A stretch of 64,000 nt of DNA from Capsaspora owczarzaki ATCC 30864 (lineage: Eukaryota > Opisthokonta > Filasterea): positions 384,380-448,379 of the forward strand of contig NW_011887296.1 of the NCBI RefSeq assembly GCF_000151315.2. Reading direction: 5' to 3'. The position numbers were made by a program, and so were the translations under genes. The notes under the pieces were generated by a model that worked only from the letters and a program-made list of their open reading frames with translations, had not been told where the DNA came from and did no database searches. This document shows positions 20,931 through 54,881 of this stretch, piece after piece (the stretch's first letter is position 1; each line of letters opens with the position of its first letter).

Positions 20931-23900
20931 TCACTTTGCTGAACCAACACTCTTCGGATCGGACTCTGGCTTTCGGCTGCGTTGCGCAAGCAATCGTCGG
21001 GCAACCAGAGAGCCGGCCATGGCAACCGCAGCCGCCACAGAGATGCCAATGCCAATCTGAGAGACAGAGGGCGCGGATGCAAGCGTGGAAATCAGCGAGG
21101 ACGCCGACGACACGCTGGTGCCCAAGTCAAAGCTCGAGGTAGTCGGCAGTGCACGGGCAGAGCCCTCACTTGCCTGTCTCGTGACACGGGTAAGGAGCGA
21201 GCCAGCAGAGCGGGCAGACATGGAAAGGACGCCAGCATACCCGCCACCTGAGGCACCGGCAGTAAATCCAGTGGCGAGGCGGTCGAACGCAAAGACCGAC
21301 GATGACGATGCCGCCGCTGCCGTGTTGGCAGCCATAGCGCCAGCAGCAATACCCGCGGCGACGCTGCCCACCATGACGCCTGCTTGGGCACCGAGGGAAA
21401 GTCGCGGCACGGCTGGGGCAATTTGCGGCAGGTTTGAGCTCAAGGCTGTGGCCGACATGACTCCTCCCTGCTTCTGCTGTTGTGGACTCAACGAAGCTGG
21501 TCCTGATGCTGGGAGGAGCAACCCAAGACCAGTTGCGTCATCAGTCTCCAACATCGGTTCAGGGGTCATGAGGCCCGCGAAATCAGAGCCCAAGGTGCTG
21601 GCCTCGGCCAAATCCGAGTCGGAGAGGAAATCCATCATGTCCTGCGCGAACTTGCTGCCGTGTTGCAAAGCATTCTGGTCGACCGCAAACAACGAAGGCT
21701 CTTGTGTCCGATAGCGCTGGAACTGGTGCTCAAACTCTTGCTGCGCGGAAGCACAATCGGGCTCGCTCATCGAGCTAAACACATTTTGAATGTAGCTGCA
21801 GCACGACTCCCAAAATTCATCGATGCGATTGTACGCCGGTGATCCACGAGCGGAATGGTGGCTCGGGAGGGCAGGCGGGGTGTCGCCGCTGCTGCCAATG
21901 CTTGGCGACGAGGCGGCGGAGGAGGACGAGTGGGGTTCCAGCGCCGCGGCGTGCCGATCCGCCAACGTTGAGGCAATCCACCCAGAGTTCAAAGCGGAAT
22001 GAACAGCATCCTGGAACACGGTCGAGCCGAAATCGTGCTGATCAGAAAGCAAAAGATTCGAAATGGCGTCAGCAGAGCGCAGCGTATCGTCAATCGACTT
22101 TTGCCCTGGCTCCAATCGCGGCAGCTTGCTGGCGTGATCGTCTTCAAGCTCGTCGTCATTGTCGTCGAAAATGAAAATGCCACTGTTGCGAGCGCTATTG
22201 GTCGCGCTGGAACTATGCGTCGGAGACGCTGCCCGAGACTGGTGCGCTTCTTCGTCCGACATGAAGGAGCTGAGTGACGAGTCGCTGTCATAGCCTTGCG
22301 ACGTCTGGCCGCGGTCTCGCTGCCGCCGTTTGCGCGATGCTCGCGTCGGAGACACGGCACGATCCAGTGCCGTTGTTTGAAGCGTTGCTGGCAGGGACCC
22401 TGCTGCCATGCCCAAGCGGACGTGGCCACCATCCAGCTCCGTCTCACTCTCAGACGAGTAGTTGGAGGCGGTTTCGTCAGTGTCATGGCCGTCGCCCCGT
22501 CGAATACTACTGGTTGCAAGGCCCATCATGCCACCGTTCTGAAGGGCCTCCAGACCCTGGAGGAAGGCGGCGTGATCGAGCGTCGAGGCGTTTGTTGGCA
22601 GTTGATCCGTGATCTCGCTGGCGGCGATGTCGAAAATAGATGCCTTTGGCGGGAGCGGCGCTTGCTGCCAAGCTGCTGCGCGGTGAGAGCGGGGGCTCTT
22701 GGAGCGGCTGGCCAAGGAAAACGGCGGTACACCAGCGTTAGTTGCGGCTGCGAGAACAGGCGACAACGGAGGCGACTCCCATTCGTCCGACAGGTAGACG
22801 TTTGTGTCTTCCTCGACTGCAGGCGTCATCTGCCCATCCACGTCGCTCTGAGTCGTGGGAGCAACTGTCGCTGCCGCCAGGTCGCGCAGCACAAAGTCCA
22901 ACTGCTGCTGACCGGATAGATCCGAAAAGTCGCCAAAGCCGCTCGTGGAGGAATGGAGACCAGAATCATCGTCGCCGTCGTGCTCGTCATCGCCATCCTC
23001 GCCAGCCTGGCGGTGAGTCGTTGCAAGATGATTGTCCGACAGACTCAGATGCTGCAAGCGGAGAAGTTGCTGCTGCTGTTGCCGCTGAGATTGTTCACCA
23101 GATGTGGACTGGGGATACACGTGCAGCTGCTCCAGGAACTGAAGAGGAGACGGAGGCACTGGCTGGCCCGTTGACGAGACTTGCTCCATTGAAGCAGGAA
23201 AGAACCCGGCAGACAGCTGCTGCTGCTGCTGCTGCTGCTGCGGCTGCAAAAGGATTTGTTGCGGAAAAGGGTGTTGTTGGTCTTGCATCGGCGGTAGGAA
23301 CTGGAATCGCGAGTAAATGTCTTGCATCGTACCGTCATACTGAGGGAGCCGTGGATCGAGTCCAGCGGCGATGGGGGAGGTGGCCTGTGGCGGTGATCGC
23401 GACTTGCTGCGCCGCCCACCAGAAGAACCGCGCCTTGCGCTCGATGCAGACGGCTTGCGTGATGTGGAGGCATAGGTGGAGTGGTCTTCGTCTTCATCGT
23501 CGTGGTTGTTGGTCTGGTCGGGGTGACCAGCAACGGCTACGGCAGCTGCGCTCCCGGACCGAGTCCTTCGTGATCCAGCAGCGGCGGGAACAATTCCGGC
23601 AGGCGGAGGCGATGAAGTGGTCAGCCCGGCGAAGGCCTCCTCGAATAAATCAGAGTCTCCTGAAGCGGAGGACATGCCTCGTGCAGCTCGGGCTCTGGCG
23701 GCCTTGGTCTGGGTGGCGGCGCCAGCAGAACTCCCGCTACTTCCCGAGCCGCCAGCCGACATTTTCGCTGGCTTTGGCGCGGGGAGATGCGGCGCGGCGT
23801 CCAGCACAAGCTGACTCTCGTTCGCATTAAAGCCGTGCGCGAGAAGCGTCTCGAGCGTCAGGTCGGCAAGTTCGAGGCCGTTATTTGCGATCGACATGAC

Positions 23901-24309
23901 ACGCTTCACTAGTTCTTCCTTCAGCTCACACGAGCGCAAGTGGCGTCGACACAACTCGGCGCTCCACGGCGCGCGGGATCCAATATGCGGCGTGATGGGT
24001 GCTGGCGTGGTGCCGGGTCGTGCCGTGGCACACGCGTAAACGTGCTTCTGGTGGTCGTATGGCCGCTTGGATCGAACGCCGCAAATGCACCCAAACGGGC
24101 GATAGTCAATGTGCACAAGCATGTGCGATGTCAAATCGGACGGCTTGTGAAACGCCGGTCGATTGGCGTGCAGCTGGCAGCCATCCCAGTGGCACAATCC
24201 CACGAATCCAGTCTTGCGGTGGCGAATATGCACTGTCTGGACGTGCTCATACAGGGTTTCGTTCGTTGGGAAGGTTTCCGGGCATATTGCCGGCTGGCCA
24301 GGCCTGTTG
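20931..24309 (-). CDS. Large PacC/Rim101-type zinc-finger protein with C-terminal membrane anchor
   Basis: One large exon of about 1120 residues whose first coding exon is not resolved. It opens with ICPETFPTNETLYEHVQTVH, the second half of a PacC-type finger. Finger 2 (CHWDGC, LTSHMLVH) and a third (CICGVRSKRPYDHQKHV) follow. Next comes a helical stretch (LTLETLLAHGFNANESQLVL) that parallels the C-terminus of genes A-C. The middle is Gln/Ser/acid-rich and disordered, as in activation domains. Near the end a Gly/Ala hydrophobic segment (IGISVAAAVAMAGSLVA) is followed by basic RRLLAQRSRK, a predicted tail anchor. No ATG lies before the finger in frame and a stop lies upstream, so an upstream exon supplying the first Cys must exist between about 24320 and 25500; I could not find it. 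Confidence 0.8.
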
Positions 24310-25558
24310 GGAGCAACAATTACAAATTGTCAGCAACAGGTCTCTGAATTTTTTTTGGATCAAGATCATAGAGCACTGATTCTTCTATTGGAGCCATTCT
24401 GCTGATCTCGTTGGTGCCTGAGAAGTTGAATGGAGCGAAACGAGACAAGAAAAAGCAAAAACAACAACAAGAGCAAAATTCTATCATTTTGACCCTTTTT
24501 TGTCGGTCTTCCAGCTTGTCACTTTGGTTGATGTTTTTTTTTTTGTTCTTCTTGCCCCCCATTGACCAATTCAATGAAAACAACCAAAAATGTCGGGCGA
24601 CAAAGCCAACCATCAAAAAAAAAAAAAAAAAAAAAAAGCGGTCATCGAAATCGCCAAGACATTTGCACCTTTGGCTGAACGCTCAAGTGCACTCACCTCA
24701 GCTCTTTCCCCCTAAAGGCGCATAGGCAGCAAAAGCCGGGATTCTCACATTTGGAGCAGCAAAAACAAAACTAACAAACAAAAAAAAACCCACCCCCGGG
24801 GTCAAGTGGAGATGGAAAAGGCGAGAAAAGCGACGCCACGCCAATTCAATCGCCAAGAAACGCTGTCTTGGTTTTTCGTTACGCTCGACACGCAGAGACA
24901 CACGAGCGCGGTGGTGTCTGTCCATGCGAATGCTCATCATCATCAAGTGCCGACGGACCAGCCGGCATCGATGTAGCAACGTCGAACGAGAGAGAGTTGA
25001 GGTGTGTGAGCTCGTGTGTGACGACGCGCATCGCAGAGCAACGGGATTGACAAGTTCGACGTCCCACGCGGTCAAACGGACAACTGCAAACGAGCCACGA
25101 TAGGGAGCAGGCGAGTAGGTGGGCGGGAGGGGGGGGGAAGAGTCTGGGACGAAAGAGAGTGGGATGCACTCGAAATTGAGCAAACCAACGAACGTACTCG
25201 CGCCATAGACAGACTCCCATCAGATTGTTCATGATGATGCAGGAGGAGTGATTGAATCAAATGCACAGCCAAAATAAGACGGGAAAACGAAAGTGAAGAA
25301 CAGTCAAAGAGACAATCAAACAGCTCCTCCAAGTTGACTGGTGGTGGATAATGATGTGGCTGTCCATTGTGATTTCAAGTACTGCTTTGGTTTCAGCGTC
25401 TTCTGCACTACCCCACCTGTTGCAGCTCATTCTCAATCGATAGCATATTTATCCAGTCAAGAGTGACCAGTTCCACATCGCTTCTTCGTGATCCGTTCAG
25501 ACTCCAGCAAAAGTTGTCTTGGGTGAAATTTTGATCAGTCTTTCTTCCGACTGCCAAG
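24310..25558. other. Region between the large and small zinc-finger genes
   Basis: It should contain the promoter and the missing first exon of the large zinc-finger gene (minus strand) and the promoter of gene A (plus strand). A donor-like CTGAG/GTGAGT on the minus strand near 24694 could end a noncoding first exon. A-rich and G-rich runs occur at 24616-24638 and 25128-25137. Confidence 0.35.
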
Positions 25559-26706
25559 ATGCAATGCGAGTGGGAAGGGTAATCGTCGCCTCCGTGCATT
25601 TTGTGACTTTTATCAAACACATACAATAGCTTCCGCCTCTATGTTGACACTGAGAAGGCGGGAAGCAAGTCGAAAGGGAGGCAGGGGGAAAGCCTGGTGA
25701 GTTTGTGACGGCACGATCGCCCATCGGCTTTGTAGCATCCTGACAGCCGTCGCAAAAAAGTGATCCGTGTGTACATTCAGTATGTAAACCGTCAGCGTTT
25801 TTTGTCCGCGTGCCGACTTCAGCTCCAATGTGGGCGGCCGTTGTCCAAAACGCGCAAGCTGTCTGGCCGGAAACCCAGCCCCTGTCCCTTGATTCGATTT
25901 CCAGACACCCGTAGCCGATATAGCTAGGCACTCGAGCACCGTTCAGTTGTCCCTCACTCATACCCGTTGATATCTGACCAGCTGAACCGTCTCTCTGCTC
26001 GGGGGTGAATTGGCGTTGATTATTGACGAGCGCGCGAAACCGGAACTGACCCTCCAACCCCCCCCCTCCTCCCGCTCCTCCTGCTCCTCCGCTGTTCTTC
26101 TCTCTACTGCCCCCTCAGGTGCGAACAACGATTCGGATCTGCGGGACTGCTGTTTGAGCACTTGCGCGAGGTGCACGTTGGTCTTCGCTTGGACAAGACG
26201 TTTCAAGGTCAATGCCAGTGGGCGAACTGCTCGCGAGCTGACCAGCAGTTTGGCAAGCCTTACGACTTGGTGTCCCACATTCAAGTGCACGTTAATGTTC
26301 GACCGTTCGAGTGCATTTGTGGCGCACGTTCGAAGCGGCAGTCTGATCTTCGGAAGCACCTTGAGGGTTGCTGTCAAGGAACGGATTTCAAGTGGACTAA
26401 GGCGACATCGGGCTTGTTCCTGGCCAGAAAGGGCTTCTCGGACGATGCCATTACACGCATCCTTCAGCTGGTGCAAGATCCTGAAGATATTCTTCGAGTG
26501 ACGGACGCTCAGCTGCTCGAGGTCCAGATGGATGCACAAACTTGCCGTCTCGTTCTCGACGGCACCCCAGTCGAATTTCGAAACAACACGGCGAAATAAA
26601 CCTCTCGCCCATTGCCTCTTTGTCGAGCCCTGTGACTTGTCTCGCTCCGAATGGCGACGTTCAGCAAAGAATGAACTTGTATGACTTTGCTTGGTTGCGC
26701 AATTTG
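25529..26706 (+). repeat. Inverted duplication, left arm (with gene A)
   Basis: About 1.18 kb that is nearly identical, in reverse orientation, to 40535-41709. Homology begins at TTGATCAGTCTTTCTTCC and ends at GTTGCGCAATTT, just before a GT microsatellite. It includes the whole of gene A with its intron. Confidence 0.9.
25559..26599 (+). CDS. Small PacC-type zinc-finger protein, gene A
   Basis: Two exons: 25559-25578 (20 bases, MQCEWEG) and 26119-26599. The intron (GTAATC...CCTCAG) splits finger 1 between its two cysteines: joined, C-EWEG-C, then FEHLREVH. Finger 2 is CQWANC with LVSHIQVH, and finger 3 is CICGARSKRQSDLRKH. The order and the CxWxxC spacing are those of PacC/Rim101 and GLI/ZIC-type fingers, which bind DNA. 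A C-terminal helical module (GFSDDAITRILQLV, ILRVTDAQLLEV, TCRLVLDGTP) is shared with B, C and the large gene. The protein is 166 residues. No activation domain or protease-processing region like that of fungal PacC is present. It could act as a repressor or competitor of the larger protein; that is inference. Confidence 0.78.
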
Positions 26707-26715
26707 ATGCTTGGG

Positions 26716-26717
<2 letters not shown>

Positions 26718-26782
<65 letters not shown>
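26718..26782. repeat. TG dinucleotide microsatellite
   Basis: About 32 TG units immediately beyond the left arm of the inverted duplication; absent at the matching edge of the right arm. Confidence 0.95.
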
Positions 26783-26783
<1 letters not shown>

Positions 26784-28150
26784 GACATATCCTGTCCAAT
26801 CCTCCAAGCAAATTGTTCGTCATGACCAACCCTCGTCGCTTTAGTATCAATCAACCTTTGCGGGGCGAGTTCATTGCCTCCAACGGGTCTTGTTTGTGGC
26901 GTCGCCTCAGACCGCTCCAGAACACTCAAAGGTGCAATTCTTCACGAACTGAATTCGCAACCACGACGCAGCAACCCGATCAAACGATTCTAGTTCTTGC
27001 TTGCAGTTGCCCTTGCCTCGCAAAGCAATCATGTCGTTACCAAGGCGAACGAAGCCAAACGAGCAAAGAAGGCTCTCGTTCGGACTGCCGGTACATCGAT
27101 ATGCAACAATTGAGAGTTCAACGCCAGTGGCCGTTTCGACGAGTGCCAGACCGCTCAAGGGAAGCACTTTGGGGTTGCAAAAGAAGAATACTGCTGGCGA
27201 CATGGTTTTTCTGCGTGCTTGGATGCCAGGTTCATGTCGAAGAATCGTTGGCGTTCGCTCGCGTGTGTTGGATCTGTCGCCGTTTGGTTGTGATCCAGCC
27301 AACAGCCCGTGTCCAACAAACCACCAATTCCAATAGGCTCGGCTGTTTCTTACGAGCCAGTCTCGACTTAACTTGGATGCACACACTCACTGCTCTCAGT
27401 CATTTTCTGAATAGTTGTGCAGGATCTCTCATTTCTGCTGGTTTGTTTTCAGCCAGTCTCGCTTCGTTTTTCTCTGTTTGCTCCTTTCTCTTCCCGTCTC
27501 TCCCGTTCACAGCTTCACTCCCTCAATCGAAGCGCACTCTCATGCTCCTCGCTCAGAACGCAGGGCGGCAGAGCCCCAGACGGCTCCAGACGCACAGGGG
27601 AAGCGCACCGCCACAGCCACACGAACAAAGCGACAGTTTCGCTTCCTCTCTCTCCCTCTTCCTTGCTCTGGCTCGCTCTCTCTCTCTCTCTGTCTACCTC
27701 GCCCTCGCCAGCACCACACTGACACCCAAGTGTCAGTCTGCACGCCGTGGTAGCACACACCAACCCAACACCACAACGCACGCAACTCAACCCAACACAA
27801 ACAATCGGCGCTTTTTGTTTTTTTCCTCTTTTTCTTTGTTGTCTGTTTACCTTGCACACAGTCACAGTCGTGGCTTGTCCTTTTGGATTTCACTTCCATT
27901 GTGTGATTTTCGGGCGATGAGGAGGCGATGAGGGAGGAAGGACGACGAAAGGAGGTGAAAGTGGCAACTCCCTTCCCCCCTTGACGCCTGACTTCTGAGC
28001 TGCTCAAAACACAAACAACAACAAAAGGATGACAACGAAGGAGGGTGACAACGAAGCATGGCTTTAATCTGATCTGAGGGTCTTCTGAAAAAACAAACAA
28101 GTCTCACCATTCACTGAGTATCTCAAAACATGCACTGAGTAACGCCATGC
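26783..28150. other. Intergenic, no gene supported
   Basis: Long open frames exist on both strands (plus 26813-27931, minus 26907-27386) but none shows a family motif. The plus frame ends in CT-rich low-complexity DNA at 27640-27710. An acceptor-like TTGCTTGCAG at 26998-27007 precedes a short basic frame that I could not identify. Confidence 0.4.
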
Positions 28151-29248
28151 CTAGTTGGTGACCACGTCTGGAGCATGCATTGCTTGCCTCAAACCTGGAA
28201 GGTAGCGTGCAATGGTCGTGTCGAGACGCTCATTGTTGTCGGCCTCCAGGAAGAGCTGCCAGCCAAAATCGTTATTGTTGCCGCTGACGGTGCCGCGCTT
28301 CAAACGCTCGCCCCAGTCCTGGTAGCTCTTGGTGTAGTAGTGGTTGATTCGGAGAATGTCGACCTCACGTGTGGCCCCAATTTCGTGATCGTAGAAGGTC
28401 GTAAACTCGAGCTCACGGAACTTTTCATCGCACAGGGGTTTGCCGTCGTAAAAGTACAGGCTGTGTGTGTTGTGCAGGCCGGCCATCTGCCTCGGGTTGA
28501 ACAAGACCTTCTTGCCAATGATGACTTCGTTGCTGCGACGCGTGTACTCTTCCAAGACCAGTCCGGGCGGTGTGGTCGTGTGGTTGTTGGAGCCAAAGTT
28601 GAGTCGCCAGGCCGCAACGCCCCCGCATCTGCCGCTACCCACAAACGTTTTCAGTATTGCGAGCAACGACTGATCGGGCGACGTTGGGAAGAAGAACTCG
28701 TCAATGTCAAAGATGCCCATGTAGCGCGTCAGGCAACGGAAGCGCTGGACGCCGTCAACGATGCCGACTCTTTGCGTGTTCTGGATGCGATAGCCCGCGA
28801 TATCGTGCGTCATGATCGTCGGGAAATCTAGCAGTGTGACAAGGCCTGCTCGCATGTACGGAACGAGCACTTCGCGGTACTTGTCCGTCGAGTTGTTGTT
28901 GTACATTAGGAAGTGGTCAAAGCCAACCAGTCTGTGGAACTCTATCCACTCCTTGAGGTACTTGTCTGCGTCTCGGAAGATGGCGAACGCTGTGAGCTGG
29001 TACTGGAAGCGGCTCGACTCGGAGCACTTGAACTCGCGCGTCGGCATCGGCATCCCGTAGACGGCGTGGAAGAGGGCCTCGCTCTGGTCAATCGGGTGCA
29101 AGCGGTCGCTCGACGCCATCTGGAGCAGCCACCAGAGCACGCCACACACGACCAGCAAGACAATGGCCATTCGGATGCGTCGCGCGATGGGCGCGTTGGT
29201 GCTCGGTGCGCCCCACCGCCGCAGCACTTGTCGCAGGTCGGTAAGCAT
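28151..29248 (-). CDS. GT92 (DUF23)-like type II membrane glycosyltransferase
   Basis: A single-exon 365-residue protein. A short basic cytoplasmic tail (RQVLRRW, RRIR) is followed by one hydrophobic segment (MAIVLLVVCGVLWWLLQMA), giving a Golgi type II topology. The catalytic part carries YLKEWIEFHRLVGFDHFLMY, YNNNSTD, the metal-binding-like DIDEFF, and INHYYTKSYQDW near the end, all hallmarks of family GT92. Animal members add beta-1,4-galactose to core fucose or other glycans; the substrate here is unknown. The start is the ATG just before the tail. The frame is open upstream to 29653 but that part looks like untranslated leader. Confidence 0.85.
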   Translation of the reverse strand: MLTDLRQVLRRWGAPSTNAPIARRIRMAIVLLVVCGVLWWLLQMASSDRLHPIDQSEALFHAVYGMPMPTREFKCSESSRFQYQLTAFAIFRDADKYLKEWIEFHRLVGFDHFLMYNNNSTDKYREVLVPYMRAGLVTLLDFPTIMTHDIAGYRIQNTQRVGIVDGVQRFRCLTRYMGIFDIDEFFFPTSPDQSLLAILKTFVGSGRCGGVAAWRLNFGSNNHTTTPPGLVLEEYTRRSNEVIIGKKVLFNPRQMAGLHNTHSLYFYDGKPLCDEKFRELEFTTFYDHEIGATREVDILRINHYYTKSYQDWGERLKRGTVSGNNNDFGWQLFLEADNNERLDTTIARYLPGLRQAMHAPDVVTN

Positions 29249-30639
29249 GAATGGATGACGTTGAAGCCGCTTCGATGAAGTGTACCGGTGGCACCGAATC
29301 GATGTATTTATTTTTTGAATTCGTTGGTCAGACGACAGAGCGCTTGTTTTGCGTGTGAGTGTGTCCCGTCCTATGAGCCTCAATCGGTAGGGGCAAACGG
29401 TGAAAAGAAGAGGTTTGGCAGAGGGTGAGTTGGGTGGAGGTGACAACGAATGGAGACTGGAAATTTTAATTTTAGGCGAATACCAAATGGACGTGCAAGT
29501 ACGACAAATAATAAAGAACAAAAGGTTGTTATGGCACAACATCCAACTCGACTCGTGCTTGTTGTTTTTAAGAAACAAGGCAAACGCAAGCGTGCGCACT
29601 TGAAATTCGCATGGAAACCCAGCGTAGCTGGCGCGGCTGAGCACTAGAAACAACTCATGAATTTACGTCGTTGGTTGGTCGAGGAGTGAGGGGTACTGCG
29701 GAAAAAAATTTAGCATGCGGAAGAGGACGAGCGTGACGGAAATTGCCGTGACAAGTTCCTAAAATAGCGACAACGCGGATTTTTCTCGCGTGTCCCAGTC
29801 GCGTGCCTGGGAACCTCCAACATGACTCTCCGGATTGTTTTCATGGGGATCTTAGATAGCTATTGGTCAGGTATCGTCGATTGCTCGATTGAATGGTATC
29901 CCTGCTTTTGCAATCGAGTTCTGAATCATTCATTTGGAATACACAATTTTAACCGAAAAGAACAAATCAAAAACCAATCCATAAGCATCCGAATACTAAC
30001 TCCTCATCACGGGCCACTGTTGCCTGCTCTGCGTCCTCAACTCAGGGTCCTGACATACTCCCAACATGTCTTTAGTCTCACTAGTTGATTTGCCTACGTA
30101 AACGGTGCGAAGGGGGGGGGGGAAGTGCATCGCCAGGTCAAAAGCCAAGTTCGCCGCTTCGCTCCTACCCAAACCGAACCAAGCTCCCGTGTGGACAATA
30201 CACAGTGATACCGTAAAACGAGCATCGCTCTTGCTCTGACTCTATGCACCTGATTCTGCGCCTCCTGTCGTTGAGCTCATGTACCTCTCGCCAATAAAAA
30301 TAAAAAAAGCACGCACCACCCAAGCGACAAAGTTTTGATTTAGCTTGCTTGCTTTTCACGTTCCTCAGGCCACAGCCAGTCACTACCTGCCTGCGCTTGA
30401 TGGCTGTTGTATCAAAGTACTGTTCATCGCATTAGTGCCAAAGCGGGCGCCAGGCTCAGCAATCAGCGCGACGATGACGCTGAAATGCGAAATTCGCACT
30501 TTAGCAAAGACAACATTCACTTTTTGCACTGTTGTTTTGTGTTTTCGGCGATTCATTCGCCAGGCTCCATGACCCGACCTCGCCGCCAACCGTCCCAGCC
30601 TGTATCTTTGCAGTAGCAAATGAGTGTATCAAATGCAGC
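29249..30639. other. Intergenic, no gene supported
   Basis: Presumed promoter of the glycosyltransferase on its left side. There is a run of ten G at 30112-30121. No coding frame with motifs was found. Confidence 0.4.
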
Positions 30640-31290
30640 AAAGCCAAAGTTGCCTATCCGATCCCAGTGTTGGTGAGAGAGTCTCGAGAGGCCGAGCGAT
30701 CAAAACGCCTCCGTGCGCGATAGCGGCCTCGCCTACCAGCAGATCGCCATCCAGCTCGCCACTACCTACTTGGACGTACGTGGTAGGGTTGAGCGCTGCT
30801 CGTGAAAGGCCACGACGCGCAATCGTTCTGGCTTTCGCCGCTCTAGCAAGCTTCAGCCACCCAACCAGCTTGAGCATGCCCAATTCTCCTCCGACGAGCG
30901 CATCGCCGCATCCAAGGTCACCCTCGCGCATGGTGGAGACTATGCAATGCGTCTGTGATGAAAGTTATGAACTGACTGCCGCTAAACGGCCCTTTGCTTT
31001 GCGGCAAAGGTCGAAAATGCGATGCTGAAGCGCGACCAAAATATACCCATCAACGTTCAACCGCAGACAACTGGCTGAACGTCATCTTCTTCAACGAGAC
31101 CGCGCTCTATCTGTACAGGACCAACGGAGATAGCCGTGGGTGGCGGCAACGGGGCGATCCGCTTGATGCAAGCAGTGTACAGAGCATCGGAGCATTGTCG
31201 GGTAAAGGTGAAGGCAAAAAAAAAAAAATCAACTCGGTTCGCCATTCGGCTGGTAGTGATCTGCCAGCATCTCTTAGGATGATTTGAAGG
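30640..31290 (+). mobile_element. Decayed Tc1/mariner-like transposase relic
   Basis: Two pieces of a Tc1-type transposase can be read in different frames. Near 30720-30795, DSGLAYQQIAIQLATTYLDV resembles the N-terminal helix-turn-helix. At 31065-31180, NWLNVIFFNETALYLYR, then GWRQRGD, resembles the WxxVxFSDE...VWRRPGE block around the first catalytic Asp, which here is Asn (FFNET). The stretch between the two is broken by stops and the third catalytic region is missing, so the copy is dead. Terminal repeats were not found, so the limits are approximate. Confidence 0.45.
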
Positions 31291-31579
31291 CCACGATGCA
31301 TTCCTAGAAATCAAAGGTCAGGGTTTGTGGAGTTGTAATGAAGTAATACGTTCTTTGTTTGAGGCTTGTTCAACGGAGTCGCTTGCGCATCCACAGGTCG
31401 ACTACGAGATTTGATCGCCACGCGAGGTCGTCAACGAATCCAATTGTTTGGCGCCCGACAAAGCATTCACAGTGCCTGTGAATCCTGTTGAAATTTCTAG
31501 AAGGGAAGTGCAATCGAAAAGGAAGTTAATGTCAGTCAGCCAGTCAAGCTTTTTGTTTCCGTCGTCAACGTTGCCAAAA

Positions 31580-32831
31580 ATGCAGTGCCACTGGGAAGGG
31601 TAATCCGTCGCCGCATTTTGTGACTCATATTTGAAGCATCTACAATACTTTCCGCCTCTTTGGGGACACTGAGAAGGAGGGGAGTAGAAAGGGAAGGAGG
31701 CTGTAGAGTTTGCAAGGGCTTTTCGGGGGCTCCCGCAGTGCAAGTTGTCATGCGGGACGATGACACACTGAGGACGGAAAGTATCATACAACCATGCCAT
31801 GTGAGATGAGCGAGGGCTGTTTTTACGTGATGAATCGAAGAGTCGCGTTGACATGGTTTGAGCGCGGGCGTCCGCCGAGACTTTTCCCAACCGCACTGTA
31901 GCCTCTGAAAGTCTCTTGCAGTCGTCGCACAAAGTGCTCGGCATGCATATTCAGTATGTATACGATTAGCTTTTCTTATTTACGAGCCGACTTCAGCTCC
32001 TATTGCAGAATAAGTGAGCGGCCGTTCTCATCGATGTCCACAACTGTTTTGCTTTCACAAAAGCCCTGTCATTCGATTTTCATACTCATGTCGCCTGTGG
32101 CTCTGTACCCGAGCATCATGCAGTTGATAGCATTCAAAATCGTTGATATGTATATTTTGCAAACTAAACTGTCCGCTGCTCGGGTCTGAATTGGCGTTGA
32201 AGAACTGAACTGACCAGTCGTATTGTCTTCCCTCAGGTGCGAACGACTATTCGGGTCTGAGGAGCAGCTGTTTGAGCACTTGCGCAAGGTGCACGTTGGT
32301 CTTCGCTCGGACAAGACGTTTCAAGGTCAATGCCTGTGGGCAAACTGCTCGCGAGTTGACCAGCATTTTGTCAAGCCTTACGACTTGATGTCCCACATTC
32401 AAGTGCACGTTAATGTTCGGCCGTTCGAGTGCATTTGTGGCTCACGTTCGAAACGGCAGTCTGATCTTCGGAAGCACCTTGGGTGTTGCTGCCGGGGAAA
32501 GGCTTTCAAGTGGACGACGGCGACATGGGCCTTGTTCATGGCCAGAAAGGGCTTCTCGGACGACGCCATTACACGCATCCTTCAGCTGGTGCAAACTCCT
32601 GCGGATATTCTTCGAGTGACGGAAGCTCAGCTGCGCGAGGCCCAGATTGATGCACCAACTTGTCGTCTCTTTCTTGAAAGCATTCCTTTCGAGACTCGCG
32701 AGAAACGACCGGACGAGATCAGCCTCTCGCCCACTCCCTCGCGCCTGAAACGGGCGGCAAGGAAACCACCAAAAGAATTAACGTTTGTGTCCTGGACTGG
32801 TTCAAACGAAACGGTAGATTTGAGCCAGTAG
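31580..32831 (+). CDS. Small PacC-type zinc-finger protein, gene B
   Basis: Exons 31580-31599 (MQCHWEG) and 32237-32831, with the intron splitting finger 1 exactly as in genes A and C. The fingers are C-HWEG-C with FEHLRKVH; CLWANC with LMSHIQVH; and CICGSRSKRQSDLRKH. The shared C-terminal module (GFSDDAITRILQLV, ILRVTEAQLREA) follows. The product has 204 residues, 38 more than A and C, because of a basic Ser/Arg/Lys tail (PSRLKRAARKPPKEL). The intron is homologous to that of A and C in several blocks. It is a more diverged paralog, probably an older duplicate. Confidence 0.77.
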
Positions 32832-33101
32832 CTGAGTTTGATGCTTGGGTATGTGTGTGAACCTCTGTTGCATGTCGTTTTTGTACAACAACGGTCTTCA
32901 TGTTTTCGGCAAGTGTTTCAGAATGTACATTGAAATTACAGGAAGAATGAAATAGCGACGTCGGGCATGCACACACAACACTATAATTTGTAATCCATCA
33001 AAATTATGCGTGTATTCAAAAACGCAGAATGCGCCAGCCGACGAATCTTCCAGCGGAACTCTCAAGTTCGCAATAACAGCCGGAAAGCAGGCGGATGTTG
33101 T

Positions 33102-36100
33102 TCACAGCATTGCACCAATTTCGCGGACGGTCGTCCCATCCTGAAGCGATGCCAGCCCCTTGACGAGCTGAGCAAATGTCGGGCGCTTCTCTGGCGATAT
33201 ATCCCAGCAACCCACCATGATGGTGTAGAGCTCGGGCTTGCAGGTCTGTGGCATGGGCAGTCGGCCGCCAGCCTCCACATGAGCCAAAGTGTCTCGCCCA
33301 TCCATCTTGCCGTACGGTGTTGCGCCGTAACTGCAGCATTCCCCTACCAACCAAGCATTGTCGTAAGTGAGAAAAGGGTTTAGCCCGACATCGCTGCGAT
33401 AGAGCCACTCGATTTACAGGCTGTTACGCCAAATGACCACACGTCCGACATGAAAGTGAACTTGCGGAAGGTCATTGTTTCCGGTGCCATCCACTACGTG
33501 TGTAACATCAACAAATTCAGCATCGAGCACCGCAAACAGCAGCCCCGTTCACACCTAAGACCCACCTTCACTGGAAGCTTGCCGCGCGTTTGCATGCGAT
33601 AGTAATCGTTATCAGAGGCCAACTCGCGAGAAAGCCCGAAATCGGCAATCTTGACCACCATTCCTTGCCCCACGAGGCAGTTGCGCGCCGCAAGGTCACG
33701 ATGCACAAAGTGGAGCGTGCCCAGATACTCCATGCCAAGTGCAATCTGGCGAATGGCGTGGATCTGCTCGTTCTGCGTCCACCAAAGCGAGTGGAGCTTG
33801 GACTTTTGAAGCATCGTACGCAAATCGCCATACTGCACAAACTCGAGCAGAACGAGATGAGGCTCTGACTCGACCAAAGCCGCTAGCAGGCGCACAACAT
33901 TCGGATGCACGAACGGCGCCATCAGTTTCGCCTCGCTTTCAAAGTCTTTGCGGGACTTTTCATCCGCGTTCGACTTGAGAGACTTGACTGCAACTTGCAC
34001 CGTTTCGGACGCCGTCGGTCCGAGCAAAGCTTGAGCTCGTGGAGGCAGCTTGCTGAACGGCACTTGACCCAGGGCTACATCGCCAAAGTTCCCACTGGCA
34101 AGGTGCTTCACAATGCTCAAGCCTTCGCGAACGCGGCGCGAGTTGCTGCCTGCTACATACGCGCTTGCATAGTCGTAGACCACCTCTGCAGAGGTACTAG
34201 TCGTCGAGATGGCTTGGTACAACGGCTCTGGCTGCTTTTGACCGACCACGGCGTAAGCTGCGATGTCCTCTTCTTTTTGAGATCCGGTCGCACGGGTTAG
34301 AGGAGAGATTGTCATCTCAACAGCCTCTTGGTAGATGGGACCGGCAGAGTTTTTCGATCGCGCAGCTGAGCGTCGCGGCGAGCGCCGGCGTCGCCACACG
34401 ATGAATACCACTGCAATAATCGCAATAACCGCAACAGAAGCTACAGCAGCTGCGATGGCAGCTGTTGCAGATGAAGATGACTCTTGAGAGTCGCCACCGC
34501 CACGTTGTGCAATGGAAGATGCAACTGATGCAGCGGACGCCGATGCGGTTGACGCAGCAGATGCAGTCCGAGCAGAAGCGATGGAGGCGAACGAAACGCA
34601 GAACCCACTCATCATAACATGACCATCATAACACTGAGTGCAGGGATTGTCTGAAGTGCAGGTCAGGCAATTGATTCCGCAACAAGAACTAGACCCTGCG
34701 GCATAGCAGGTAGCACAGGCTGTATCGCACTCTGCAGAACCAATGTCAGTGACATGATCACATCGGCATGACAGTCACCTCGCGAACTTACTGTATGGTT
34801 CAGATGCACTGCCGTATGTGCTGGGCGGAGCGACAGTATTCCCGTCAAAGGTAAAGTTGTTGGGCCTCAGAGAATAGGACACACTCAGCGCCAAATACAT
34901 ACCATTTTGCAAGCCCGTAAACAGACCGGGCGGCAGAGTGGTGAGGGGATTGTCATTCAAAGCTCTGCAAGCAACGCAAAGTAAGAAGCACATCAAGCAC
35001 GAGCGACGACAAAAAGCTCTGGCTTACAAGGCAGTCATCGCAGTAAGACCTGAGAATGCGTTTGCAGAAATGCTGGTGATCTGGTTGTTGTATAGATGTC
35101 TACAGAAGGAATCGCAAACGAATGAGTCGTATGCATGTGATGCTTTACGTCTCTGCTTGCTTACAAGAGAGTCAGCGCGCTCAGGCCTGCGAATGCGTTC
35201 GCAGAAATGCTAGTAATCTGGTTGTTGGGCAGAACCCTGCAGAAAACCGCAAACATGTGAGCTGTCTCTCTGTGGTCCTTCATGTCTTTGCCTGCTTACA
35301 ATTGTATCAGCGCAGTCAGGCCTGTGAATGCAGAGGTTGGGATACTGCGGAGCTGGTTGCCGGCCAGATTCCTGCAAACAGGACGAGTGAGATATTGTGA
35401 TTTTTCACGACTTTTGCTTGCTTACACTCCTATCAGCGCAGTTAGGCCTGCGAACGCAGTGGCGGGAATGCTGGTGATTTGGTTGTTGGACAGTGATCTG
35501 CAGATCGAGTCGCAAACGAGTGAGTCGGATCTGAATGGTCCTGCATGTCTCTGCTTGCTTACACGGATTTCAGCATAGGCAGGCCTGCGAGTGCAGAGGT
35601 GGGCATACTGGTGAACTGGTTGCCAGATAGCACCCTACAGAAAGTGACGCAACGAGTGAGCCATTGTGATTCTTCGCGACTTTGCTTGCTTACACTCCTG
35701 TCAGCGCAGATAGGCCTGCAAAAACGTTTGCTGAAATGCTGGCAATCTGGTTGGAGGATAGATCCCTGCAAATAGAGTCGCAAACGAGTGAGCCGTTTGT
35801 GTGTGATTTTTCACGTCGATGCTTGCTCACAATCTATTCAGCGCGGCCAAGCCTGTAAATGCGTTTGCAGAAATACTGGTAATCTGGTTGCTTTGCAGAT
35901 ATCTACAGATAGACACAAAGAGTGAGTCGCAGATGCGGATCCTCACGACTTTGTGCGTTGCTTACAGCCAAGTCAGCGCAGTGAGGCCTGTCAATGCGTT
36001 TGCGGAAATGCTGGTGATCTGGTTCAGGTTCAGATACCTATCGACCGTATGCTAGTAAGAAGGGCAATCATTCAATTCAAATGCAGCTCACGCAATACGT

Positions 36101-39100
36101 ACAGGATTGTCGTGTTGATTGGAATTCCGCTTGGGATGGCGGAGAGAGATCGGCCATTGCAATCGACAGTTGTATCCGAGCAAATGCACAAACCACCGAT
36201 GCCACAAGCATTAACTGCTGAAGTGGCAGATGCGGACGCTGAAGCAGAAGCAACGGAAGCGACTGAAGCGACTGAAGCGACGGAAACAACCGATGCAACG
36301 GATGCCATAAATGCACTTGTCGCAGCAGATGCGAGGCAGAAGCCACTCATCATAACATGACCATCATAACACTGAGTGCAGGGATCGTTTGAAGTGCAGG
36401 TCAGGCAATTAATCGCGCAACACGACCCGGATCCTGCGGCATAACAGGTGGCACACGCTGTATCGCACTCTGCAGAATATATGTCAGAGACATGATCACG
36501 TGGGCATGGCGGTCACTTGCAAACTTACGGTATGGTTCAGATGCACTGCCGTATGTGCTTGGCGGAGCGACAGTGTTCCCACTAAAGGTAAAGTTGTTGG
36601 GGCTCAACACTAGGGATGAAGGCGTCAAGTACATGCCATTTTGCAAGCCCGAAAATAGACCGGGCGGCAGAGTAGTGAAGGGATTTCCATCCAAAGTTCT
36701 GCAAGTACTGCAAAGTCAGAGGCATATCAAACATGCGCCGAACGAGTGCTTGCTTACAATCGGGTCAATGCAGTCAGGCCTGTGAATGCGTTTGCAGAAA
36801 TGCTAGTGATCTGGTTGTTGTGTAGATGTCTACAGAAAGAGTCGCAAATGAGTGTGCCATGTTTGCGTGACTAGTCGTGCCTTTGCCTGCTTACAACTGT
36901 GTCAGCGCAGTCAAGCTTGTAAATTCGCTTGCAGAAATGCTAGTAATCTGGTTATTGTGCAGACCCCTACATACAGAGGTGCATATGAGTGAGCCGTTGT
37001 AATTCTTCACTACTTTGCCTGCTTACAATCCCATCAGCGTAGTCAGGCCTGTGAATGCAGAGGAAGGAACACTGCGGAGCTGGTTGTCGCCCAGATTCCT
37101 GCGGACAGAGTTGCGAACGAGTGAGCGGCTGTGTGCTGTTCATCCAGTCTTTTGCTTACAAGACGGTCAGCGCAGTCAGGCTGGTGAATGCAGAGGAAGG
37201 AATACTGCGGAGCTGGTTGTTAGCCATATTCCTGCGGACAGAGTTGCGATCGAGTGAGCGGCTGTGTGCTGTTCACTGTCTTTGCTTGCTTACAAGAAAG
37301 TCAGCGCATTCAGGCCTGCTAGTGCGTTTGCTGAAATATTGGTGATCTGGTTATAATCAATTCGTCTACAGATAAAGTCGCAACAAATGAGCCGTGTGTG
37401 AGTGTGTGTTTCTTCATATCGTTGGTTGCTTACAAGAAAGTCAGCGCGGTGAGGCCTGTAAGTGCAGAGGTGGGAATACTGGTGAACTGGTTGATATTTA
37501 GCCCCCTGCAAATAGTGTCACAACGAGTGAGGTGTTTGGGTTCGATTCGGCATGTCTTTGCTTGCTTACAAGCCTGTCAGCGCAGTCAGGCCGGCGAATG
37601 CAGTTGCAGAAATGCTGGCAATCTGGTTGTTGGATAGATCCCTGCAAATAGAGTCGCCAACGAGTGAGTCAATTGCCTGTTACTCTTCATGGCATTGCTT
37701 GCTTACAGTACTGTCAGCGCAGTCAAGCTTGCGAATGCGTTTTCAGAAATGCTGGTGATCTGGTTGGCCGACAGATCTCTACATATAGAGGCGCAACAAG
37801 CGTGAGTCGATTGTGTTTCTTCATGTCTTTGCTTTGCTTACAGCGAAGTCAGTGCAGTGAGGCCTGTCAATGCGTTTTCGGAAATGCTGGTGATCTGGTT
37901 GCTCTGCAGGTACCTATCGACCGTATGCCAATCAGGATGATAATTCAAGGCCAGCTCACGCAATACATACAGGATTGTCGTGTTGATTGGAATTCCGCTT
38001 GGGATGGCGGAGAGAGATCTGCCATTGCAAACGACAGTTGTATCCGAGCAAATGCACAAACCACCGATGCCACAAGCATTAACTACTGAAGTGGCAGATG
38101 CGGACACTTGTGAGGCAATTGACGCAGAAGACGCTGAAACAGAAGCAACAGAAGCGACTGAAGCAACGGAGGTAATCGATGCGTTGGTCGCAGCTGATGC
38201 AAGGCAGTAGCTGCCCATCGAAAAATAACCCTCGTAGCACAGAGTGCACACAGCCGAGGAACTGCAGGTCAGGCAATTGGTGCCGCAACATGATCCGGAC
38301 CCCAAAGCGTAGCAGGTGGCGCAGGCTGGATCACAAGCTGTAATACAAACGTCAACGAAACGTTCACCTTCTCAGGAATTGCAAGCAGCTCGGAACATAC
38401 GGTATGGATGGGATGCACTCCCGTATGTGCTGGGCGGAGCAACAGTGTTCCCGTCAAAGGTAAAGTTATTGGGGCTCAGATATTGGTACGAAGCGGACAA
38501 ATACAAGCCATACGCCAAGCCCTTAAACAGACCGGGCGGCAAAGTCGTGAAGGGATTGCCATCCAAAGCCCTGCGAGTACGACAAAGTCAGAGGCATAGC
38601 AAACATGCGCCGAACGAGTGCTTGCTTACAATCGGGTCAATGCAGTCAGGCCTGTGAATGCGTTTGCAGAGATGTTGGCGATCTGGTTGTTGTCCAGAGC
38701 CCTACAGATAGAGTCGCCAACGAGTGAGCCGTTTGTGTGTGATTCGTCACTCACAACTTTGCTTGCTTACAGGTAGGTCAGCGCGGTCAGGCCTGGAAAT
38801 GCTTGGGTGGGAATGCTGGTGATCTGGTTGTTAAGCAGATATCTACATGCAGAGATGCCAGCGAGTGAGGCGTTTGCTTGCGATTCGTCATGTCGTTGCT
38901 TGCCTACTTACAACTGTGTCAGTGCGCTCAGGCCTGTGAGTGCGGCTGCAGAAATACTCGTGAGCAGGTTACTGGAAAGATACCTGGATAGAGTAGCAAA
39001 CGAGTGAGTCTTCTGTGTGTTATTATTCCTGTCGGTGCTTGCGTACAGGTATTTCAGCGCAGTCAGGTTTGCGAATGCGTTGACAGGAATGCTGGTCATC

Positions 39101-39651
39101 AAGTTGTTGTTTAAATATCTACAAGAGTGTCGCTATTTAGTGAGCCCTGTGTGTTTGTCGTCGTGTCGTTGCTTACTTACAAGACGGTCAGCGCGGACAG
39201 GGTTGTGAATGTGCTTGCCGAAATGCTGGTGATCTGGTTGGTTTGCAAATACCTATGGCAGGTCGCAAAACGAGTGAGCCCTCTTGCTACGATTCTTCAA
39301 ACCGTCCATTGCTTGCTTACAGGTAACTCAGAGCAGTGAGGCCAGTGAATGCGTCTGCAGAAATGCTGGTGAGTTGGTTGCCCTGCAGAGACCTATCATC
39401 CGCACATCAACGTACGCAGAATGAGGAAGTTTGTGCTTGAACTCAAGTCAGCTCGATGGCAACACTTACAGCTGCGTTGTGGTGACTGGGATTCCGCTTG
39501 GAATGGCTGAGAGAGTTCTATAACTGCAATCGACAGCAGTTCCCGAGCAACCGCACGCGGTACAAGCATCGTCTGCCTGTGCCAACTGGATGTGATGGCT
39601 GACACACAGCAGCAGCAGAAGCAGGCCAAAGGCAAACCCTTTTGGTGTCAT
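33102..39651 (-). CDS. LRR receptor tyrosine kinase with three tandem LRR blocks
   Basis: About 30 exons and roughly 1530 residues. The first exon (39651-39470) encodes a signal peptide (FAFGLLLLLLCVSHHIQLA) and an LRRNT (CTACGCSGTAVDC). LRR exons, nearly all 72 bases and phase 2, follow in blocks of 6, 9 and 8. Each block closes with an LRRCT-like exon (near 38397-38572, 36528-36703, 34793-34964) and a Cys-rich exon (CDTACATCYAAGS). The first two Cys-rich exons continue through Ala/Ser/Val repeats into the next LRRNT (CGIGGLCICSDTTV). Exon 34731-33566 holds a hydrophobic membrane segment ending in WRRRR and most of the kinase (SGNFGDVALG, VAVKSL, HRDLAARNC, DFGLSRE); exons 33493-33418 and 33343-33102 give WMAPET, SDVWSFGV and the end. 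All catalytic residues look intact. Activation-loop YY and juxtamembrane tyrosines (GPIYQEA, EPLYQAI) could be phosphosites. Confidence 0.88.
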
Positions 39652-40534
39652 CTCTGCGGATGGAAATATTGCCAATTCAGTGACATTTACAACGTGAGCT
39701 CGATAGCTTCAATAAACACTCGCCCCCCCCCCCACAATATCAGAGTGCTGAAAGCCAGTTGTTGCGTGGATAGCTGGAGACGGGTTGTCTCAAATTGTCA
39801 CAACGACTAGCATTTGTAGCCTGTCTGCTCCCAGCGCTCCCTTCTCTATCACTTCCACTTGCTTTCATTGATCAAATGTGCCCTTGCTTTCATTGATCAA
39901 ATGTGCCTTCGATAGAGCGGCGGAAAGAGAGCGGCGCATCAGCTTTCGATCGCACTCGAATTAAGTTATGGTTTGTTTTTGGTCCATTGCGAATGTTTCC
40001 AGGCCAGTCGCAAAGCCGCCCCCCCGCTGTGTCGCTCCTTCCGCACCGTCACTGCTTCTGATTGATTCGATTAGCATGATGCTTCAACAGGAGCGCGCTG
40101 AAGGATCAGAGAGGACGAGAGACAGAGAAGGGGTGCTCAAAGCCAAGCCGTCATGTTCGACAGCAGCTCCGACCCGCGCCCGCTGAGCATGCGAACGGCC
40201 TGCTTTGCGATGCGACTGCAGAGGCGAAGCCAGATCATCAGAAGCGAGCAGCGGGTTTGCTTCTTGGGTTTGACGATGCGTCTGTGGCTGACCTTTGTTG
40301 TGACCAAGGAAACGGACGACAAATCAAAGAAACCAATAAAAGAAAACGAACAACAACAATAGGAGTGAAACCAAATTTGGTCGAGCTTTTTACGCCTTGA
40401 GAATCATCTCGTCTTCCGTGGCGGGGAGTTGGACGGGTGTACGAAACTGGAGGGTGTTTTTGATAACCGGCTACGTCATAGGACTCAACACTGCTCGTGA
40501 GGCATTGTGTGGGTTGCCATCGATCCAAATTGAA
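39652..40534. other. Presumed promoter region of the LRR kinase gene
   Basis: It holds a run of C at 39723-39732, a 25-base tandem duplication and no supported gene. Short open frames near 40137-40322 show no motif. Confidence 0.45.
39858..39907. repeat. 25-base direct duplication with TTGATCAA core
   Basis: The unit CTTGCTTTCATTGATCAAAT plus GTGCC occurs twice head to tail without mismatch. Each copy carries the palindrome TTGATCAA. Confidence 0.9.
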
Positions 40535-41709
40535 ATTGCGCAACCAAGCAAAGTCATACAAGTTCATTCTTTGCTGAACGTCGCCATTCGGAGCGAGACA
40601 AGTCACAGGGCTCGACAGAGAGGCAATGGGCGAGAGGTTTATTTCGTCGTGTTGTTTCGAAATTCGACTGGAGTGCCGTCGAGAACGAGACGGCAAGTTT
40701 GTGCATCCGTCTGGACCTCGAGCAGCTGAGCGTCCGTCACTCGAAGAATATCTTCAGGATCTTGCACCAGCTGAAGGATGCGTGTAATGGCATCGTCCGA
40801 GAAGCCCTTTCTGGCCAGGAACAAGCCCGATGTCGCCTTAGTCCACTTGAAATCCGTTCCTTGACAGCAACCCTCAAGGTGCTTCCGAAGATCAGACTGC
40901 CGCTTCGAACGTGCGCCACAAATGCACTCGAACGGTCGAACGTCAACGTGCACTTTAATATGGGACGTCAACTGGTCAGGCTTGACAAACTGCTGGTCAG
41001 CTCGCGAGCAGTTCGCCCACTGGCATTGACCTTGAAACGTCTTGTCCGTGCGAAGACCAACGTGCACCTCGCGCAAGTGCTCAAACAGCAGCCCCGCAGA
41101 TCCGAATAGTTGTTCGCACCTGAGGGGGCAGTAGAGAGAAGAACAGCGGAGGAGCAGGAGGAGCAGGAGGAGGGGGGGGGGTTGGAGGGTCAGTTCCGGT
41201 TTCGCGCGCTCGTCAATAATCAACGCCAATTCACCCCCGAGCAGAGAGACGGTTCAGCTGGTCAGATATCAACGGGTATGAGTGAGGGACAACTGAACGG
41301 TGCTCGAGTGCCTAGCTATATCGGCTACGGGTGTCTGGAAATCGAATCAAGGGACAGGGGCTGGGTTTCCGGCCAGACAGCTTGCGCGTTTTGGACAACG
41401 GCCGCCCACATTGGAGCTGAAGTCGGCACGCGGACAAAAAACGCTGACGGTTTACATACTGAATGTACACACGGATCACTTTTTTGCGACGGCTGTCAGG
41501 ATGCTACAAAGCCGATGGGCGATCGTGCCGTCACAAACTCACCAGGCTTTCCCCCTGCCTCCCTTTCGACTTGCTTCCCGCCTTCTCAGTGTCAACATAG
41601 AGGCGGAAGCTATTGTATGTGTTTGATAAAAGTCACAAAATGCACGGAGGCGACGATTACCCTTCCCACTCGCATTGCATCTTGGCAGTTGGAAGAAAGA
41701 CTGATCAAT
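40535..41709 (-). repeat. Inverted duplication, right arm (with gene C)
   Basis: Counterpart of 25529-26706 in reverse orientation. The outer edge lies 22 bases beyond the stop codon of the ATRIP-like gene. The TG microsatellite next to the left arm is absent here. Confidence 0.9.
40639..41680 (-). CDS. Small PacC-type zinc-finger protein, gene C
   Basis: Exons 41680-41661 (MQCEWEG) and 41119-40639, 166 residues, the inverted copy of gene A. It has the same three fingers and C-terminal module. It differs from A mainly in a patch of about 45 bases in finger 2 (C reads KPDQLTSHIKVHVDV where A and B read KPYDL-SHIQVHVNV). Its ATG is only 51 bases from the stop codon of the ATRIP-like gene on the same strand, so it has almost no private promoter. 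It may rely on sequence inside its own arm or be silent. The splice sites are intact. Confidence 0.75.
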
Positions 41710-41731
41710 CGTACCATTGAAACAGAAGACG

Positions 41732-44700: not shown

Positions 44701-45141
44701 CAGCCTTCATCGATGAGCGATGTGCAGGCATCGGTTCAACGACTTCAGACTTCACAATGACAACCTGACCGGGCGTTGAGTTTGGCTGCGAGTCAAGCAG
44801 GATGACGGGCAGCGACATTGCCAGCTGCTCAAAGTCGTCGTCATCGTCCAGCGTGAAATCTGCACACACACACACAAAAGAACAAGAATTCAAAAAATCA
44901 AGTACGGCGGTGACCGCGAGTGAGTTCCTCAAAGCATACTCAAAAGCAAGTGCACGCAATATGAAACAAGACCGAAACACTAGGGTTTTGGCGGGCTTTT
45001 TTTTCGGTGGGTGAAACGCACCAAAGCTGTCCGTGGGCTTGCTTGTGGACACGGATGAGGATGGAGGGACGGTCGGTTGTTGGAGTTGGACTGGTCGAGA
45101 CGAAGGCAGATGCCGGGCAAAGGCAGACGACTGGGCAGGAC

Positions 45142-45175
<34 letters not shown>

Positions 45176-45421
45176 CACGGATGATGAGGCGAACGTGAGT
45201 GTGCTCTTGCGCGATCCAAAGCCAGTGTGCTGCTGCTGGTTGACTGGCATGGACACACCAGCACCACTGGGCAGAGGAGCAGCAGCAGCAGCGGCGGCGC
45301 CGGCGCCAGAAGAGGTGGACGTGCCGCTGCGTACGAGCGCCGGTTTGCTTGCCAAGGATGCTGGGGCGTCATCCACCGTGGCTAGGCGCATACGCTTGGC
45401 CGTGCGCTCGCCATCATCCAT
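41732..45421 (-). CDS. ATRIP-like checkpoint protein (candidate)
   Basis: Five exons: 45421-45022, 44859-42386, 42309-42167, 42128-41968 and 41865-41732. They join exactly (3312 bases, about 1103 residues). The splice between exons 1 and 2 creates DSFDFTLDDDDDFEQLA. This resembles the acidic RPA-binding motif near the N-terminus of ATRIP (DFTADDLEELD in animals). The remainder has long Ala/Ser/Pro-rich tracts, a short possible coiled coil (LAKLREAQRQENQERR) and a Leu-rich helical C-terminal half. That half could be the HEAT-like part that binds ATR, but I found no single diagnostic motif there. ATRIP recruits ATR kinase to RPA-coated DNA. The alternative is an unrelated large protein with an acidic RPA-type motif. 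The upstream TTG extension to 45442 is ignored. Confidence 0.5.
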
Positions 45422-49159: not shown

Positions 49160-49609
49160 TGTTGTTAGCTGTTTGGAAAAAAAAACGAAACAAAAATTGG
49201 AGTGAGGATGAATGGAGAAAATGCTTGTTTTGGATGGCTTTTCTTTAAAAACCGCTCTCAGCATGGAAGCGTCTAGAAGCCCCGCGCTTTTGTTTTGTTT
49301 GATTTTGTGTGCGGAAGAATCGAGACCAACACAGCCAAAAGCCGTCCACCTTCAAGAATAGCAATGGTCGAGTTTGGAGAAAGAGGTGGAACAAAATGGA
49401 ACAAAATGTCCAAAAGCAAGAACAACATCGGATTGTCAATTGCACAGTGCACAAACTCGCACGCCCACGAATGGACGGCAGAAAAAAAACCTCACAACAA
49501 CGACACCACAACGACGCACAACCAGCAGGAAATACGGACGCAAAGCCATGCAAGAGGGAGACCAGAAACGAACAAAATATCAAATCAGTCGTCTGCTGTC
49601 ATCTGCCGT
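49160..49609. other. Hsp90 promoter side and 3' flank of the MAGUK gene
   Basis: 450 bases without a gene. I looked for perfect heat-shock elements (GAAnnTTCnnGAA) and found none convincing; GAAGCGTCTAGAA at about 49266-49278 has wrong spacing. Confidence 0.5.
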
Positions 49610-52231: not shown

Positions 52232-52263
<32 letters not shown>

Positions 52264-54618: not shown

Positions 54619-54881
54619 GTTGAAAGACTGAGCACCTAAGGTATGGTTCAAATTTGGAATGAAAACGGTCGAGATACTTGGTCAAGTCTAGGACCGAGCG
54701 GGGATGGGTGGGAAGGGAGAAAGGAAGGCGACGACCGTACCAACACCGCGCAAATCCCCAACACCACAACGACGAGCTGCAACAACGATGAAGAGGATTA
54801 ATGGGGTTATTCTGAACAACAAAGAATCGAGCAATGACATCCAAGGAAACCAAGAAACACAAAACAACAAGAGCGCTTTCA

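Follow-up and report, generated by a model that had tools for sequence, protein, structure and literature searches.

A 64-kb stretch of the Capsaspora owczarzaki ATCC 30864 genome (NW_011887296.1, contig 5, positions 384,380 to 448,379; hereafter, the window) was analyzed, with whole-genome searches covering 27.46 Mb in 29 contigs. Positions 20931-41680 of the window contain four zinc-finger paralogs, three small (A, B, and C) and one large (D), which agrees with a first-pass annotation that had placed four paralogs in about 21 kb. Their fingers and a C-terminal SAM-like module point to a coherent gene branch whose parts are of known kinds and whose combination is apparently undescribed. The parts of the small genes are as follows:

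25559..25578, plus strand: exon 1 of A (20 nt), the MQCEWEG start with the first Cys and the Trp of finger 1; GT donor, phase 2, open joined frame
26119..26599, plus strand: exon 2 of A, with the remainder of finger 1, fingers 2 and 3, the SAM-like module, and the stop
26213..26290, plus strand: finger 2 of A
26312..26371, plus strand: finger 3 of A, C-x-C-x12-H-x3-C
26387..26587, plus strand: SAM-like module of A
31529..31599, plus strand: exon 1 of B, with the ATG at 31529 or 31580
32237..32831, plus strand: exon 2 of B
32505..32705, plus strand: SAM-like module of B, by homology to A
41661..41680, minus strand: exon 1 of C
40639..41119, minus strand: exon 2 of C
40651..40851, minus strand: SAM-like module of C, by homology to A

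The junctions predicted for A, B, and C (25578/26119, 31599/32237, and 41661/41119, respectively) are base-exact, all GT-AG and phase 2, and leave the joined frames uninterrupted, in agreement with the earlier proposal that an intron cuts finger 1 in these genes. The predicted products of A and C have 166 aa each and that of B 204 aa, or 221 aa if the in-frame ATG at 31529, 17 codons further upstream, is used; B ends with 38 extra residues. Genes A and D point away from each other, and the 326 bp that separate their start codons (window 25232-25559) form a possible shared promoter.

Gene D had been assigned about 1120 residues. Its open reading frame (20931-24329) proved real, but the earlier model lacked a first exon, and the revised product has 1135 aa, starting with MNNLMGVCLWREPGQPAIC:

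25198..25232, minus strand: exon 1 of D (35 nt), MNNLMGVCLWRE, with the first Cys and the Trp of finger 1, absent from the first-pass annotation; located by pattern search
20931..24303, minus strand: exon 2 of D, with the fingers, the SAM-like module, a long low-complexity region, and C-terminal hydrophobic segments
23775..23972, minus strand: SAM-like module of D
21000..21056, minus strand: hydrophobic segment 1095-1113 of D, a possible tail anchor
21327..21383, minus strand: putative hydrophobic segment 986-1004 of D

The region 25232-25198 is likely the missing exon. It reads ATG..TGT-CTA-TGG-CGC-GA/GTACGT on the minus strand and is followed, after an intron of 894 nt, by the acceptor CAACAG/GCCTGG at 24303; these splice signals were located by eye and by pattern, without a splice-site model. 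Within the 2 kb upstream of D, the ATG-CxW-GT pattern has a single occurrence, compared with a mean of 0.019 in 1000 first-order Markov sequences, and a version with a stricter donor gave five sites in the whole window, namely those of A, B, C, and D and one at 17914. The intron lies in the second codon past the finger-1 Trp, in phase 2, at the same site and in the same phase as in A, B, and C, and alignment of D with AEBP2 (5y0u) places the new Cys opposite the first finger-1 Cys of AEBP2. This agreement is the strongest evidence for a genuine split finger that predates the divergence of all four genes; the candidate exon extends it from three genes to four of four.

The finger ligands of A–D are C-x-W-..-C-x12-H-x4-H in finger 1, C-x-W-x-x-C-x15/17-H-x3-H in finger 2, and C-x-C-x12-H-x3-C in finger 3, which is of the C2HC type rather than a canonical C2H2 finger. 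Judged by sequence, they belong to the tandem-CWCH2 (tCWCH2) class, in which two Trp residues make one hydrophobic core and which comprises PacC, AEBP2, Zic/Gli/Glis, and Zap1 as separate classes (PMC2837044). A Trp stands between both Cys of fingers 1 and 2 in the spliced products of all four genes, and the residue after the first His, for which the class has V/L/I in finger 1 and V/L/I/M in finger 2, is L, L, L, and V in finger 1 and I, I, I, and M in finger 2 (A, B, C, and D, respectively). The linker of fingers 1 and 2 has 12, 12, 12, and 11 residues in the same order; the class rule is a length near 11.8 +/- 4.4 residues and no TGE(K/R)P (PMC2837044).

Searches for the nearest class gave several answers. 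A provisional PacC finger consensus had 25 matches in the genome, of which gene C was the strongest (1.5e-14); it outranked a Gli/Zic-like gene as well as A and B, and D came sixth. An A–D profile scored this provisional consensus at 71.5 bits, GLI fingers 1-3 at 47.7, and a piece of AEBP2 without finger 3 at 40.1. Among solved chains, a profile of seven family members matched 2gli first, and PacC was not among the best 60 of its 170 matches; D matched AEBP2 first (4.9e-7), and gene C alone matched ordinary fingers first and 2gli eighth. The best Pfam match of A was Zap1_zf1 (1e-7, above the cut-off) and that of B was plain zf-C2H2, while D without its first exon stayed below every Pfam cut-off (its top match, zf-C2H2, had 16.6 bits vs the 25.2 required).

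The three additional members of the seven come from elsewhere in the genome, all on the minus strand (C16:604476-604841, C12:346583-347056, and C8:1194913-1195374). The C12 and C8 genes have the Trp between both Cys of fingers 1 and 2 that tCWCH2 requires. The C16 gene (L005) keeps fingers 2 and 3 and has, in place of finger 1, a degenerate stretch, MFVKLREVALKVIRR, that corresponds to LFEHLREVHVGLR in A; no in-frame finger 1 was found in it. In finger 3, H-x3-C is common to all seven members, with C-x-C in five and C-x2-C in two. The regions after the fingers in these three genes are left unassigned, since they could not be linked to the A–D module (hhalign probability 1.2%): none of six comparisons of D or A with them was clear of chance, the nearest being A-C8, whose score 118 of 2000 shuffles reached, and D-C8, with 151 of 2000. 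Among themselves, the tails of C12 and C16 are clearly similar (0/2000), those of C16 and C8 weakly (35/2000), and those of C12 and C8 not at all (1029/2000). Other finger genes were set aside, either as CxW genes that are Gli/Zic-like or have more fingers (L010, L011/L007, and L009/L006) or as further finger genes (L013-L017, L019, L020, and L021). A search for a viral source yielded 42 pattern stretches, none of which was confirmed.

The C-terminal module is common to the large and small genes, as had been claimed. The D module aligns with that of A with a score of 47 (shuffle mean 21.7; 1 of 2000 shuffles reaches 47) and with that of B with a score of 34, reached by 17 of 2000 shuffles. The module had also been described as unfamiliar from PacC and perhaps undescribed; structure prediction assigns it to a known kind: the predicted models of the A and D modules have the five-helix SAM fold across the whole module and agree with solved SAM domains along most of the chain. 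With moderate confidence, based on these models, the module can be called SAM-like. In sequence, the Pfam SAM model matched none of the seven members, and a profile search gave a weak hint (SHIP2 SAM, E 0.19). Four weak Pfam families found in the seven members, the best of them RecX_HTH3 (E 0.042, three members) and none of them SAM, were taken as noise.

The structural matches bear on the possibility that the four proteins are chromatin-complex adaptors of the AEBP2 kind, with fingers that bind protein rather than DNA and a SAM-like domain that polymerizes. The matches of A include the SAM domains of Polyhomeotic, Scm, and L3MBTL3, those of D are headed by the Ph/Scm pair, and AEBP2 is the top solved match of D. 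However, the A–D profile scores the provisional PacC consensus above the AEBP2 piece, which is without finger 3, and Pfam finds in D only weak zinc fingers. We regard this alternative as very unlikely.

The history of the small genes is recorded in three further features:

25531..26705, plus strand: arm of an inverted repeat with A; the other arm (40533-41708), with C, is 98.2% identical
40942..40986, minus strand: codons 52-66 of C, a finger-2 helix tract unlike that of A (26252-26296, plus strand), with 10 of the 17 A/C coding differences
31254..31514, plus strand: decayed copy, upstream of B, of the inferred 3' end (42030-41734, minus strand) of the gene that precedes C; two blastn blocks show 82% and 79% identity, and the translation has stops

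The A/C repeat (1.18 kb; 20 mismatches and one gap) runs from 28 nt before the ATG to 106 nt past the stop. A TG microsatellite (window 26718-26781) lies directly 3' of A, just outside it. All 17 coding differences, 13 nonsynonymous and 4 synonymous, fall in exon 2, whereas the remaining 674 positions have three mismatches (one each upstream, in the intron, and downstream) and one intron gap; the densities (17/481 vs 3/674) differ with Fisher P 9.5e-5. The cluster of changes in finger 2 has P 5e-7, a value calculated once the cluster had already been seen. When polarized with B, six changes fall on A and ten on C, eight of the latter in codons 50-67, and one is unpolarized. A genome search for a donor of the changed tract of C returned only A, B, and C. 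The likeliest reading is a recent gene conversion over the 5' part of A and C, combined with older divergence and, perhaps, conversion of a tract in finger 2.

The upstream sequence common to B and C is missing at A. At C, it resembles the 3' end of the upstream gene (ORF 42191-45442, inferred end 41732), and at B this copy is broken by stops; B and C thus probably stem from an older duplication that took in the end of the upstream gene. The start codon of C is located 51 nt past the inferred stop of this same-strand gene (window 41680-41734), a gap that leaves little space for a promoter of its own.

Two further readings of the small genes depend on these data. In the first, each of A, B, and C would be a transcription factor in its own right, with a DNA specificity that has diverged, rather than a modulator of D. 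Positions 2 and 3 of the finger-2 helix are Y-D in A and D-Q in C, nearby residues differ too, and control may differ, since the upstream sequence of B and C is missing at A. Yet the proteins have almost nothing besides the fingers and the SAM-like module with which to activate or repress, apart from the extra end residues of B. The ratio of nonsynonymous to synonymous changes in the A/C pair (13:4) is near the site ratio (384:114), close to neutral, and gives no support for positive selection or adaptive change. We consider this reading unlikely. The second, that at least one small gene is a relic, duplicated and with an open frame but non-functional, appears more doubtful still. The nonsynonymous and synonymous rates (dN and dS) are equal between A and C, C lies close behind its neighbor, and a decayed fragment of that neighbor lies upstream of B; on the other hand, the finger ligands and splice-site dinucleotides of A, B, and C are intact, and the A-B comparison gives dN/dS of 0.71 with no frame shift.

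We therefore give slightly more credence than not to the reading that the four genes form a lineage-specific tCWCH2 branch with a SAM-like domain, in which D would be the effector and A–C modulators. Fingers 1 and 2 would pack together via their Trp residues, fingers 2 and 3 would contact DNA, and the SAM-like domain would form homo- or hetero-oligomers. Besides these parts, D has about 950 residues, possibly including membrane segments, and would act as the effector; A, B, and C, with little beyond the fingers and the SAM-like domain, would modulate it through common sites or through SAM-SAM pairing. Since domains of this kind often stick proteins together, the small proteins could pair with D or block it, and they may compete with it, as the first-pass annotation had proposed. 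The intron that splits the finger would date back to the gene from which all four descend.

Protein D may also be membrane-tethered by a tail anchor. Its most hydrophobic 19-residue stretches are 1095-1113 and 986-1004 (Kyte-Doolittle means of 2.09 and 1.73), the former followed by a 22-residue tail beginning with RRLLAQRSRK; given the Gly/Ala richness, such an anchor is uncertain. A broader scheme, which is speculative and in our estimate improbable, would make the locus a self-contained switch: D would be a membrane-tethered tCWCH2-SAM transcription factor, and the three small paralogs would tune its release or its activity, with A and D sharing a short divergent promoter and conversion keeping A and C alike save where finger 2 reads DNA.

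The first-pass annotation had suggested that both the family and its module may be undescribed. For the module this seems no longer to apply, given its predicted SAM-like fold, while the tCWCH2-SAM combination is apparently undescribed. This judgment is based on literature searches covering Capsaspora transcription factors, CWCH2, PacC, and SAM/C2H2, which do not prove its absence from print: among the papers listed on Capsaspora transcription factors and zinc fingers none has a title on the A–D family, and those listed for Rim101/PacC contain no mention of Capsaspora. The main text of the 2010 survey by Hatayama and Aruga, which defined 11 tCWCH2 classes, contains neither SAM nor Capsaspora (0 occurrences each; PMC2837044). 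Such a branch in a close unicellular relative of animals would help to trace the diversification of PacC-, Zic/Gli-, and AEBP2-type regulators. The short paralogs, with fingers and SAM only, beside the long D would be a natural test of short-long pairing, and the A/C pair, near-identical outside exon 2 and differing in the finger-2 helix, lends itself directly to an experiment on how specificity changes.

Among the neighbors, a family 92 glycosyltransferase (PF01697, 3.2e-22; window 28151-29662, minus strand) lies between A and B. The minus strand of window positions 33000-39800 holds a tyrosine-kinase gene (PF07714, 8.8e-47) and, next to it, an array in which a 115-nt repeat stands 17 times; by eye the copies look like leucine-rich repeats, and each exon apparently contains one. 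Three ectodomain blocks in this region, 1.74 and 1.87 kb apart and each with a Cys-rich end, suggest a tandem internal or gene duplication. The Pfam neighbors at window positions 353-12209 and 46261-59459 are ordinary (ubiquitin hydrolase, RRM protein, Vps8, HSP90, UDP-GlcNAc 2-epimerase, and RRN3).

Compared with known systems, the A–D module resembles the SAM domains of regulators (Polyhomeotic, Scm, p63/p73, and SAMD1/L3MBTL3) as a helical module, about 65 residues long, that belongs to a regulator-like protein and has structural matches to them, and differs in having no Pfam-level sequence match; none of those domains is known to be joined to a tCWCH2 unit. AEBP2, a metazoan tCWCH2 class with a PRC2-binding (Polycomb repressive complex 2) C-terminal region, shares two CxW fingers, a long linker, a third finger, and a longer finger 2; its finger-3 spacing is C-x4-C, in contrast to C-x-C in A–D, and the main text of the survey names no SAM domain for it (PMC2837044). 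Zic/Gli/Glis proteins share the tCWCH2 pair but have five fingers (PMC2837044). The gap of 10 residues between the finger-1 Cys of D is within the Zic range of 6-38, whereas the Zic A-intron lies in the middle of the finger domain and not in finger 1 (PMC2222250). The zinc regulator Zap1/ZafA supplies the top Pfam match of A, but its fingers number up to eight and include two tCWCH2 pairs (PMC2837044), compared with three fingers in A–D.

PacC/Rim101, a fungal pH regulator activated by pH-dependent proteolysis, is the type to which the fingers had first been assigned, and, as represented by the provisional consensus, it is the closest of the three references compared. Membership does not follow: finger 3 is C-x-C/H-x3-C instead of the canonical C-x2-C-x12-H-x4-H, finger 2 is longer (15-17 residues from Cys 2 to His 1), the tail is SAM-like, the PalA-binding motif YPx[L/I] was found in none of A, B, and D, and the best matches of A and D lie with Zap1_zf1 and AEBP2. 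PacC-like nevertheless seems a fair label for the fingers themselves, which share with PacC the number of three, the CxW in the first two, a similar R-x-x-D-x-x-K in the finger-3 helix, and, in finger 2 of gene C, the K-x-D-x-x-T-S-H-I-x-V-H-V of the provisional consensus.

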